DNA from: Aequorivita sp. CIP111184 | Lineage (GTDB): Bacteria; Bacteroidota; Bacteroidia; Flavobacteriales; Flavobacteriaceae | Length of the DNA stretch: 64,000 nt | Assembly (NCBI RefSeq): GCF_900489465.1 | Contig: NZ_UEFQ01000013.1 | Location: 310,001-374,000, forward strand | Direction: 5' to 3' | Shown: positions 62,011-64,000 of the stretch, piece after piece | Numbering within the stretch: the stretch's first letter is position 1 | How the letters are laid out: the number at the start of each line of letters is the position of its first letter | Program-made: the position numbers and the translations under genes | The notes under the pieces: generated by a model | What the model saw: only the letters and a program-made list of their open reading frames with translations | What the model was told of the DNA's origin: nothing | The model's database searches: none

Positions 62011-62619
62011 ATGTCATTCGAATTACCAAAATTACCGTATGCATTTGATGCATTGGAGCCTAACATCGACGCTAAAACGATGGAGATACACCACGACAAA
62101 CACCACCAAGGTTATACAGATAAATTGAACGATGCCATTAAGGGTACCGATATGGAAGGAAAAACCATAGAAAATATTTTGACAAATCTTGATATGGAAA
62201 ATAAAGCCGTCCGTAATAATGGCGGCGGATTTTACAATCACAGTCTTTTTTGGAAAGTAATGTCCCCAAATGGCGGTGGAAAACCTTCGGGCGATTTAGC
62301 AAAAGCTATTGATGATGCCTTTGGAAGTTTCGATGCTTTTAAAGAGAAATTTTCAGAAGCTGCAAAAACACAATTTGGTTCAGGTTGGGCTTGGCTTTGC
62401 GTTCATAAGGGCGGAAAAGTGGATGTATGTTCAACTCCAAATCAAGACAATCCGTTAATGCCAAAAGTAGGTTGCGGCGGAACTCCAATTTTAGGATTGG
62501 ATGTTTGGGAACACGCCTATTATTTGAAATATCAAAATAAGCGCCCAGATTATGTAGGTGCCTTTTGGAATGTAATTAACTGGGAAGAAGTTTCTGTTAA
62601 CTACGCAAAGAATAAGTAA
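62011..62619 (+). CDS. sodA: Superoxide dismutase, Mn type (Fe/Mn family)
   Basis: 202 residues. Metal ligands: His27 in MEIHHDKHH, His in [11 protein letters not shown] near 76, Asp and His in [10 protein letters not shown] near 164-168. NQDNPLMP and the GG in front of FYNHSLFW are closer to manganese than to iron enzymes; cambialistic use is possible. No signal peptide, so it protects the cytosol. Single gene with promoter and strong terminator. Confidence 0.94.
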
Positions 62620-62644: not shown

Positions 62645-62683
62645 AAAAATCCGCAATCAAAATTTTGGTTGCGGATTTTTTTT
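62645..62683 (+). terminator. Intrinsic terminator of sod
   Basis: AAAATCCGCAA pairs with TTGCGGATTTTTTTT; the T-run is eight bases. Confidence 0.9.
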
Positions 62684-62793
62684 AAAAAAAATAGCACGCT
62701 TGTTCAAGAAAGTTTTGGTGAAAAATTTCTAGAGTCACTTCATCTGAAAAACAATGCTCTATTTAAAATATCACTCTACTAAATTTCGCGCAT

Positions 62794-62869
62794 AAAAAAA
62801 GGCAAACAAGTGTTTGCCTTTTTTTGCCCCAAATCTACCATGAACTTAACCTACTTATGCTAATGGTAT
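62794..62869 (-). ncRNA. Candidate small RNA, copy A
   Basis: On the minus strand a TATATTTG -7 element (62880-62873) is followed by an about 76-nt unit. It holds a 5' hairpin with stem TACCAT/ATGGTA, a conserved loop part TAAGTAGGTTA, the unpaired linker ATTTGGGGCA, and the terminator hairpin GGCAAAC/GTTTGCC with flanking A- and T-runs. Copy B at 63058-63133 has the same order of parts, with changes that keep pairing. No reading frame of note is present. No clear -33 element is seen. Confidence 0.6.
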
Positions 62870-63057
62870 GTTCAAATATATGTCAATAAAGTATTCAAAA
62901 TTATGGTTTTAGATGAATTACCTGTTTTTTCGTTAAAAAACATATTTTGATTATAATCAGTCAAAAAATCATCTTTTGTATAGAAATTTTAACACTAAAA
63001 AAGTAGAAATAGCTCAATAACATAACCCACAATATTCTTCACCTCAATTTGGATATG

Positions 63058-63133
63058 AAAAAAGGCAGGCTTTCGCCTACCTTTTTTGCCCCAAATCTTA
63101 CCATAGACCTAACCTACTTACGCCTTATGGTAA
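63058..63133 (-). ncRNA. Candidate small RNA, copy B
   Basis: Same architecture as copy A: TATATTTG at 63144-63137, 5' hairpin CTTACCATA/TATGGTAAG, loop part TAAGTAGGTTA, linker ATTTGGGGCA, terminator GGTAGGC-GAAA-GCCTGCC with one G-T pair, then a T-run. The terminator stem sequence differs from copy A while the structure is kept. An inverted repeat ACACTA-AAG-TAGTGT lies just upstream at 63156-63170 and could be an operator. The gene lies about 110 bp behind the purF stop on the same strand. Confidence 0.6.
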
Positions 63134-63243
63134 GTTCAAATATAATTCAACTTTAGACACTAAAGTAGTGTTAATCAACAAATTCGATTAAGTGGAGTGG
63201 GTTCCCGATAAACGGCAAAGCCTGTGTTAAAATTCAAATAAAT

Positions 63244-64000
63244 TTAATAGGCACGCTCTGAATTACCTTCATAAAAGTTTATATAGGCACGGTTCACGAC
63301 CCTATTACCACCGGCAGTTGGATAGTTTCCTGTAAAGTACCAATCACCAAGGTTTTTTGGGCAAGCTTTATGCAAATCGTCCACAGATTGAAATATAAGT
63401 TTCACTTTTGCTTGAATGTTTTCCTCACTAATTATTTCAGCTATCTTATCTGAAATCTCTTCGTCAGTAAAGGGTGCGTAAAGTTTTTTAACATGATTAA
63501 TGACTGAAACATCCTCCATTTCAACCTGATCTTTACATTTGTGATAGATTTCTTCAACAATCGCATAGGTGCCACGATCTTTGTGAAGTTCCAAAGCAGC
63601 TTGAAAAGCTACCAGATGTTCAAGACGTGCCATATCTATCCCATAACAATCTGGGTAGCGAATTTGCGGTGCAGATGAAACTACAACAATCTGTTTAGGG
63701 TGAAGCCTATCAAGCATTTTCAAAATACTTTTCTTTAAAGTGGTACCACGAACAATACTATCGTCTATGATTACCAAATTATCGTCAGGTCTTACCACAC
63801 CATAAGTTACGTCATAAACGTGGGCAACTAAATCATCACGACTGCTATCATCTGTAATAAAAGTTCTAAGCTTTACATCTTTTATAGCAATCTTCTCCGT
63901 GCGTATTTTATGCGATTGTATTTGCTGAAGTCTTTCTGGAGTTAACTTTTCCTTTTCGTTCAGAATAGCTTCGTTTTTCTGTTTATTCAGTTCATCCTGC
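63244..64000 (-). CDS. purF: Amidophosphoribosyltransferase, 3' part
   Basis: The frame is open from 63999 to the stop at 63244 (251 residues plus stop); the 5' part lies outside the window. The PRPP-binding motif is VIIDDSIVRGTTLKKSIL, followed by SSAPQIRYPDCYGIDMA. TDDSSRDDLVAHVYDVTYG precedes it. The C-terminal GDWYFTGNYPTAGGNRVVN is typical of the longer Bacteroidota enzyme. It makes 5-phosphoribosylamine, the first step of purine synthesis. Confidence 0.92.
   Translation of the reverse strand, partial: QDELNKQKNEAILNEKEKLTPERLQQIQSHKIRTEKIAIKDVKLRTFITDDSSRDDLVAHVYDVTYGVVRPDDNLVIIDDSIVRGTTLKKSILKMLDRLHPKQIVVVSSAPQIRYPDCYGIDMARLEHLVAFQAALELHKDRGTYAIVEEIYHKCKDQVEMEDVSVINHVKKLYAPFTDEEISDKIAEIISEENIQAKVKLIFQSVDDLHKACPKNLGDWYFTGNYPTAGGNRVVNRAYINFYEGNSERAY

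Follow-up and report, generated by a model that had tools for sequence, protein, structure and literature searches.

In the type I toxin-antitoxin systems IstR-1/TisB and OrzO/ZorO, a small RNA represses the mRNA of a small peptide. IstR-1 is ~75 nt long and pairs in the leader of its target, and TisB has been described as a peptide of 29 aa. Systems of the Qrr and CsrB/RsmYZ type place several sibling sRNAs under one response-regulator-type operator, and Firmicutes possess peptide-LytTR systems in which the peptide is the signal. To our knowledge, Bacteroidota outside Bacteroides have yielded few base-pairing sRNAs for which a target is defined. Within Bacteroides, FopS/GibS (RF04319) are described as multicopy paralogous sRNAs with canonical sigma promoters that pair near the start codon, FopS bearing a single-stranded 5' seed before its terminator and targeting susC (PMC11697453). 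The account of Rfp18 from F. psychrophilum presents it as a trans-encoded sRNA conserved in Flavobacterium (PMC9723704).

Here we describe two tandem units between purF and sod in a 64,000-nt stretch of DNA from the marine flavobacterium Aequorivita sp. CIP111184 (the window). With a probability of roughly 0.8, we regard them as genes for paralogous trans-acting base-pairing sRNAs, conserved across Flavobacteriaceae, that belong to a LytTR-type regulon and most likely keep a micropeptide message from being translated. As in IstR-1/TisB and OrzO/ZorO, a small RNA would repress a small-peptide mRNA, repression being predicted in the present case. In contrast to both, 1 to 6 sRNA copies lie far from the target and have the same operator motif as it, the peptide is unrelated, conservation is family-wide, the regulon is wider, two genomes have probable anti-sRNA genes, and antisites occur inside coding sequence. 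As in the Qrr and CsrB/RsmYZ-type systems, several siblings share one kind of operator. Unlike in those systems, the target lies under the same motif, and the operator consists of LytTR-like direct repeats, by analogy to the E. coli YpdB sites described in PMC4847170. Multiple paralogous copies, canonical sigma promoters and pairing near the start codon are features held in common with FopS/GibS, from which the present RNAs differ in seed, targets and phylogenetic range.

Within 62794-63144 and its immediate upstream flank, both units display the order operator, -7 box, hairpin, linker and terminator on the minus strand (Table 1). The original prediction of two tandem minus-strand units at this place was therefore correct, the predicted RNAs being 75 nt (copy B) and 74 nt (copy A) in length. 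It had, however, taken TATATTTG as the first part of the RNA, whereas this sequence appears instead to be promoter and to lie outside the transcript: the Bacteroidota sigma-A -7 box is given as TAnnTTTG, at -12 to -5 in F. psychrophilum (PMC9723704). Since TATATTTG fits this box, the +1 would be the first hairpin base, 63132 in copy B and 62868 in copy A. Both units look like sRNA genes, with a sigma-A -7 box, a predicted RNA of ~75 nt, a 5' hairpin, a linker and an intrinsic terminator. As judged by sequence and fold, they have the anatomy of trans-encoded sRNAs, namely their own promoter and terminator, an intergenic position and no ORF; a small ORF within the sRNA was ruled out because the frame between the ATG and the terminator shifts from copy A to copy B. 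Compared to shuffled sequences, the 75-nt B transcript and an 81-nt piece around it folded with z scores of -6.4 and -6.3, respectively, and an 87-nt piece around copy A with -3.8; the weakest case was a 72-nt piece of copy A (z -2.7, 3 of 200 shuffles equally good).

Table 1. Features of the sRNA locus and its neighbours, in window coordinates.
Feature	Coordinates	Strand	Remarks and basis
sRNA copy B	63058..63132	-	75 nt, upstream member of the pair; R2 76.1 bits, R1 99.3 bits; +1 placed from the -7 box
Copy B sigma-A -7 box TATATTTG	63137..63144	-	sequence; TAnnTTTG consensus as given in PMC9723704
Copy B operator	63186..63212	-	direct repeats TTTATC (63212-63207) and TTAATC (63191-63186), spacing 21 bp
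Copy B 5' hairpin	63099..63132	-	fold, alignment; loop seed TAAGTAGGTTA at 63120-63110
Copy B linker seed AGATTTGGGGC	63088..63098	-	column conservation, pairing
Copy B intrinsic terminator	63058..63087	-	fold, covariation
sRNA copy A	62795..62868	-	74 nt, downstream member of the pair; R2 77.8 bits, R1 92.3 bits
Copy A sigma-A -7 box TATATTTG	62873..62880	-	sequence
Copy A operator	62912..62937	-	direct repeats TTTAAC (62937-62932) and TTCATC (62917-62912), spacing 20 bp
Copy A 5' hairpin	62836..62868	-	fold, alignment; loop seed TAAGTAGGTTA at 62857-62847
Copy A linker seed GATTTGGGGC	62826..62835	-	column conservation, pairing
Copy A intrinsic terminator	62795..62825	-	fold, covariation
purF 3' part	63244..63999	-	upstream neighbour on the same strand, runs past the window end; TIGR01134 1.4e-10 (partial, under cut-off); PDB PurF chains 3.5e-10
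Fe/Mn superoxide dismutase (sod)	62011..62619	+	convergent neighbour; PF02777 2e-43, PF00081 2.1e-31

At gathering level, a tRNA was the sole Rfam 15 match in the whole window, and the sRNAs reached the gathering score of no family. At a permissive E-value their best match was FopS-like and far under threshold, copy A scoring 21.2 bits against the RF04319 gathering threshold of 56, which makes it not FopS by the Rfam threshold; other weak matches were likewise far under theirs. Mimicry of a tRNA D-arm by AAGTAGGTTA was an idea set aside once antisense leaders turned up. The purF 3' part had no match in Pfam. At window positions 62648-62684, an inverted repeat (TCCGCAA...TTGCGGA) followed by T is probably the sod terminator, convergent with copy A.

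The two stem-loops are conserved in distinct ways. Among 130 distinct aligned units, 12 of the 13 terminator-stem pairs displayed double changes and 99.7% of cells were paired, whereas the 5' hairpin displayed a double change in 1 of 12 pairs, its outermost pair being open in 40 units and one P3 pair in 26. Because the loci of these units were chosen by exact core, the count was repeated on 53 distinct units identified solely by covariance model; double changes were then present in 9 of 13 terminator pairs and 2 of 12 hairpin pairs, and one P3 pair was open in 23 of 53 units. The loop GTAGG, the 3'-arm TGGT and the linker ATTTGGG were identical in all 53 units, while one base of ATGGT was kept in 52. 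What is conserved in the terminator is its structure, and in the 5' part the sequence more than the structure. Near invariance of the 5' hairpin and linker is likely due to target pairing, which would fix the sequence as in a seed shared with targets. The original prediction of compensating stems thus stands for the terminator but fails for the 5' stem, and its description of loop and linker as nearly unchanged is borne out. In one unit of arrays L045, L047, L049, L055, L056, L057, L058, L060, L061 and L070-L073, the linker ends in GGGAC (GGGAT in L047) rather than GGGGC. Linkers of the GGGAC type are exactly complementary to GTCCCAAATCTTACC, with which both the own-genome target leader and the sponges discussed below begin.

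A model built from Aequorivita sequences (R1) was searched against 149 Flavobacteriaceae genomes representing 148 genera. At E<=1e-4, 121 of the 149 contained the sRNA family, in 1 to 6 copies each, and the remaining 28 gave nothing or E >1e-3. The expected homologues with conserved structure are thus found family-wide, with a covarying terminator. Within Aequorivita, BLAST and model R2 agreed on sRNAs in 22 of 28 genomes; copies A and B are distinct from each other, and each is almost frozen in the genus. The two window copies are the only good matches in their own genome, the next (E 0.006) lying on the opposite strand over the copy A terminator. Among 196 genomes of the order, R2 gave E<1e-9 in 26 of the 30 same-family genomes listed and in none elsewhere, the best match outside the family being 5e-6; among 296 genomes of the phylum, the best outside the family was 8.8e-5. 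Four outside-family loci (L096-L099) were rejected, as they align mainly over the terminator and the AGTAGGTTA core is absent. The sRNA family was thus not found outside Flavobacteriaceae among the order and phylum genomes searched, nor was the exact core found in viral contigs.

An exact-core scan of named genomes returned at least 118 stretches. Among the 80 listed, titles naming a genus or family indicate Flavobacteriaceae, to which we take the named genera to belong; 5 read Bacteroidetes or Bacteroidota bacterium and 1 Flavobacteriia bacterium. Both purF and sod flank the core at 57 of these 80 loci, purF only at 10, sod only at 9 and neither at 4. The four with neither (L102, L111, L153, L163), and likewise L036, hold sRNA units among other genes, L111 near the locus end and L153 beside genes judged by eye to be purC-like and phoH-like. 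Arrays reach six units, spaced mostly 0.1 to 1.1 kb start to start, with a few wider gaps (1.8 kb in G144, 3.8 kb in G104). Spacer near sRNA terminators in other Aequorivita genomes and in G104 (L011:1590-1800, L009, L005, L015, L016, L285) contains tandem repeats GGGGTGGCGAGC...GCGAGCCGTTT, which partly include the terminator 3' half plus GCCCCAAAT, the complement of the linker.

The anti-linker CCCCAAATCT was counted in a 10-genome panel, where 57 non-self matches compared to 42 in the control (55 of the 57 inspected, and at least one true-looking leader, G066:113380, adjoining an R3 match, lost to the self-filter) amounted to no overall enrichment; two Aequorivita genomes gave 20 versus 5 in the control, and the rest of the panel 37 versus 37. 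As a blind target screen the anti-linker was rejected, matches being mostly antisense to open frames and unenriched overall, yet one intergenic match that recurred among genomes led to the micropeptide locus. This locus (L328; G000:C35) is intergenic, between scoB (3-oxoacid CoA-transferase B) and a convergent gene for a dipeptide-type ABC ATPase, on the same contig as the sRNA genes and ~318 kb from them. In order, it contains an operator motif and a stretch resembling a promoter, followed by the leader GTCCCAAATCTTACCAACTTAACCTCATATGG, an ORF of 29 codons (MEKVFRSFKSTKELVLNVLFIFKKVFLLV), the anti-linker and a terminator. The leader GTCCCAAATCTTACCAACTTAACCTCATATGG is antisense to the sRNA; since the locus was found via the anti-linker after the ORF, the leader match was not what the search selected for. 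BLAST revealed the same arrangement in further genera. In one Aequorivita genome (G009:C1:1218358-1219589), three micropeptide leaders lie in tandem.

Duplex energies, all computed without the sRNA's own folding, were -40.9 (B) and -37.6 (A) kcal/mol with the own leader, and 0 of 1000 shuffled own leaders were as strong for either copy. For 13 genomes of 12 genera, each sRNA with its own leader gave -27.6 to -42.3 kcal/mol (z -3.8 to -8.5), the leaders in other genera having been picked by similarity to that of the own genome; 12 of these duplexes beat 200 of 200 shuffles, 1 of 200 was as strong for G080, and 0 to 3 of 440 background start regions equalled them. Three further genomes (G068, G114, G151) gave -39.0, -46.7 and -42.0 kcal/mol, respectively; in each case none of 200 Markov controls was as strong. 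Complementarity to a distant mRNA is therefore conserved, in the window copies and in a total of 16 genomes of 15 genera, at about -28 to -47 kcal/mol. In all 16, the loop TAAGTAGGTTA and the linker GATTTGGGG pair with UAACCUACUUAUG, containing the start codon, and UCCCAAAUC of the leader, such that ~35 conserved nt of sRNA are complementary to micropeptide mRNAs over the leader and start codon. After the promoter, the best-kept columns in 15 picked leaders were the complements of linker and loop, the terminal ATG being fixed by the cutting scheme. The loop and linker, proposed earlier as seeds for target prediction, are the parts that pair in these computations, and the homologues together with this pairing support the earlier suggestion that the units represent a trans-acting regulatory RNA family.

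We propose that each sRNA starts at the 5' hairpin and ends at the terminator, and that the hairpin loop CAUAAGUAGGUUA and the linker GAUUUGGGG would serve as a double seed, pairing with UCCCAAAUC ... UAACCUACUUAUG over the 5' end and start codon of an mRNA for a small cationic amphipathic peptide. Because this pairing covers the 5' end and start codon, translation initiation is most likely blocked, though the conserved duplex could instead activate translation.

Co-occurrence of sRNA and leader was assessed in the same 149 genomes using a sequence model (R3) that covers the operator and the leader (match, E<=1e-3; many matches are of the operator only). Both were present in 103 genomes, the sRNA only in 18, R3 only in 2, and neither in 26 (Fisher p 3.7e-15 with kinship ignored, many sRNA-negative genomes being small or incomplete); of 9 listed sRNA-negative genomes that were near-complete and >2.4 Mb, 1 had an R3 match. 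The 18 of 121 sRNA-positive genomes without an R3 match, among them the large, 99%-complete G076 and G106, indicate that the leader is not universal or that R3 misses it. Matches were partial in G058, G155 and G316, and weak in the sRNA-negative G037 and G138. Within Aequorivita, which has six sRNA-negative genomes, the two searched with R3 (G005 and G022) lack both sRNA and leader (best R3 E 0.006 and 0.036), while G000, G002, G007 and G009 have both. R3 also weakly matched the antisense strand of sRNAs in G104, G065, G127, G058 and G002 (E 0.016-0.11), and its operator half matched DNA upstream of sRNAs in G058, G316 and G155 (E 2e-4 to 0.08).

The operator, which precedes the -7 box, is common to the units as direct repeats with a spacing of 20-21 bp. 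Its position-wise consensus is GCATTTCATCGA-N8-GCATTTTATCTAAAA with a 20-bp period, the second repeat also being given as GCATTTTATC. A strict rule of two TYAWC cores found 116 of 388 unique units, compared to a mean of 3.9 and a maximum of 8 in 100 Markov controls, and missed 272; a loose rule found 235, compared to 26.8 in Markov controls. LytTR regulators are described as binding a pair of 9-11-nt repeats separated by 11-13 nt, and E. coli YpdB as binding GGCATTTCAT repeats (PMC4847170); the consensus, with its 20-bp period, conforms to the pattern of paired direct repeats. Based on this resemblance, we infer that the operator is bound by a LytTR-type regulator. LytTR genes are present in all 28 Aequorivita genomes, at 5 to 12 matches per genome, sRNA-negative genomes included. 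The best candidate class of LytTR protein (L248) was tried as the regulator and set aside: it occurs in most sRNA-positive genomes of the genus among the matches listed, yet also in the sRNA-negative G022. The motif is common to the sRNA array, the target promoter and genes for secreted and other proteins. Since array and target promoter carry the same kind of operator, a single regulator would activate both the message and its inhibitor, which would constitute an incoherent feed-forward or pulse circuit.

Other genes bear the motif as well. A likely regulon member, present in several genomes (L412:766-1476 of the own genome, L385, L387, L423), is a secreted leucine-rich repeat protein; its gene has the operator motif, and a C-rich stretch immediately precedes the ATG. 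Proteins of 81-88 aa with CxxC motifs are encoded under the operator motif at L381, L382, L383, L419 and L428; two of them, scanned for families, gave no confident match. A gene for a T9SS-sorted protein (L393) has the operator motif and an antisite in its leader. At L342, L353, L355 and L372/L425, the motif precedes a conserved ~150-nt non-coding stretch with its own terminator, which starts near GTGTACTAAATAACA and holds GACCC(C/T)AAAT(C/T)T.

The predicted target mRNAs encode a conserved, apparently hitherto unnoticed peptide of 29-42 aa (..YVAKKVFLLM / ..YLTKKIFML). The 29-codon ORFs (n=11) differ by codon position as 538/317/872, as for a coding sequence. In the first class the C-terminus is close to YVAKKVFLLM; members of the second, mostly 40-42 aa, read MNxATNLPEPTY...YLTKKIFML. 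Fifteen second-class leaders contain 42 sites for the consensus sRNA compared to 11.4 in shuffles, some within the NLPEPTY codons. Each of five peptides analysed for these properties is amphipathic and cationic, with a charge of +3 to +6, and one peptide per class had no match in Pfam or NCBIfam at E<=0.01.

These peptide properties would suit a membrane-active toxin with the sRNAs as trans-encoded antitoxins, a type I module of the TisB/IstR-1 or ZorO/OrzO kind, which is a special case of our main reading and one that we consider possible but doubtful. Pairing of a short sRNA over leader and start codon, the joint presence or absence of sRNA and leader, and the three tandem leaders in G009 all fit such a module. 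Against the definition of a peptide of <~60 aa repressed by RNA pairing, size, coding signature and pairing agree, and repression is predicted. A self-contained module would not, however, be expected to have its operator motif in common with genes of secreted and other proteins; moreover, the sRNAs are near-universal in the family rather than patchy, and the distance between sRNA and target genes in the own genome also speaks against this reading.

It is unlikely that the sRNA is one already reported from Flavobacterium transcriptomes, e.g., Rfp18, such that targets and spread alone would be new. At named Flavobacterium loci the array sits between purF and sod. Rfp18 is described as conserved and strongly folded (PMC9723704), and sRNA candidates of F. 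columnare without an Rfam match have been reported (PMC5395568). In contrast, the pairing region given for Rfp18 is a third stem-loop, with metalloprotease targets (PMC9723704), while the purF-sod RNAs have two stem-loops, the two being compared by description only.

Some antisense leaders seem not to belong to peptide messages. G155 has four tandem short RNA-like genes (L358:918-1600) and G146 has one (L354:1511), each starting with an antisense leader and ending in a terminator; the antisense starts give -32 to -47 kcal/mol with the consensus sRNA, and inspection of these genes by eye revealed no sizeable ORF. They are probable natural anti-sRNAs, or sponges. BLAST pieces of the anti-sRNA part occur in further genomes, e.g., G028, G045, G130 and G134. 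Such genes raise the question of whether micropeptide mRNA and anti-sRNAs serve mainly to free other targets, such as T9SS-secreted proteins, from the sRNAs, the peptide being secondary. The antisite in the T9SS-sorted protein leader points the same way, as does a second anti-linker site after the own micropeptide ORF (-25.7 kcal/mol with B, -28.2 with A). We nonetheless judge this quite improbable, since the peptide has a coding signature and the antisites cover its start codon. A protein-binding RNA (CsrB- or 6S-like), with complementarity as by-product, is very hard to credit: the sequence-conserved 5' hairpin and the arrays would suit it, but antisense leaders lie under the same operator motif in many genera, the duplexes beat nearly all controls, and there is no Rfam match.

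Returning to base-pairing sRNAs that silence a micropeptide message, we tentatively suggest, partly by analogy, a core Flavobacteriaceae circuit in which a LytTR-type response regulator would turn on both a membrane-active or exported micropeptide and the tandem sRNAs silencing it. In some genera the NLPEPTY codons may have been shaped by sRNA sites, in others non-coding sponge arrays may have joined or replaced the peptide message, and the peptide may be the circuit's signal. Within the open-licence literature searched, this control circuit is apparently undescribed. Each of its links is checkable with few mutants in a tractable flavobacterium. The sRNA family occurs in the majority of the genera sampled from this large environmental family, whose members include fish pathogens. 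Its seeds, its probable direct target and an operator motif can be named, together with probable natural anti-sRNAs in two genomes, and it leads to a conserved family of micropeptides for which neither Pfam nor NCBIfam has a model, as judged from the one peptide scanned per class.
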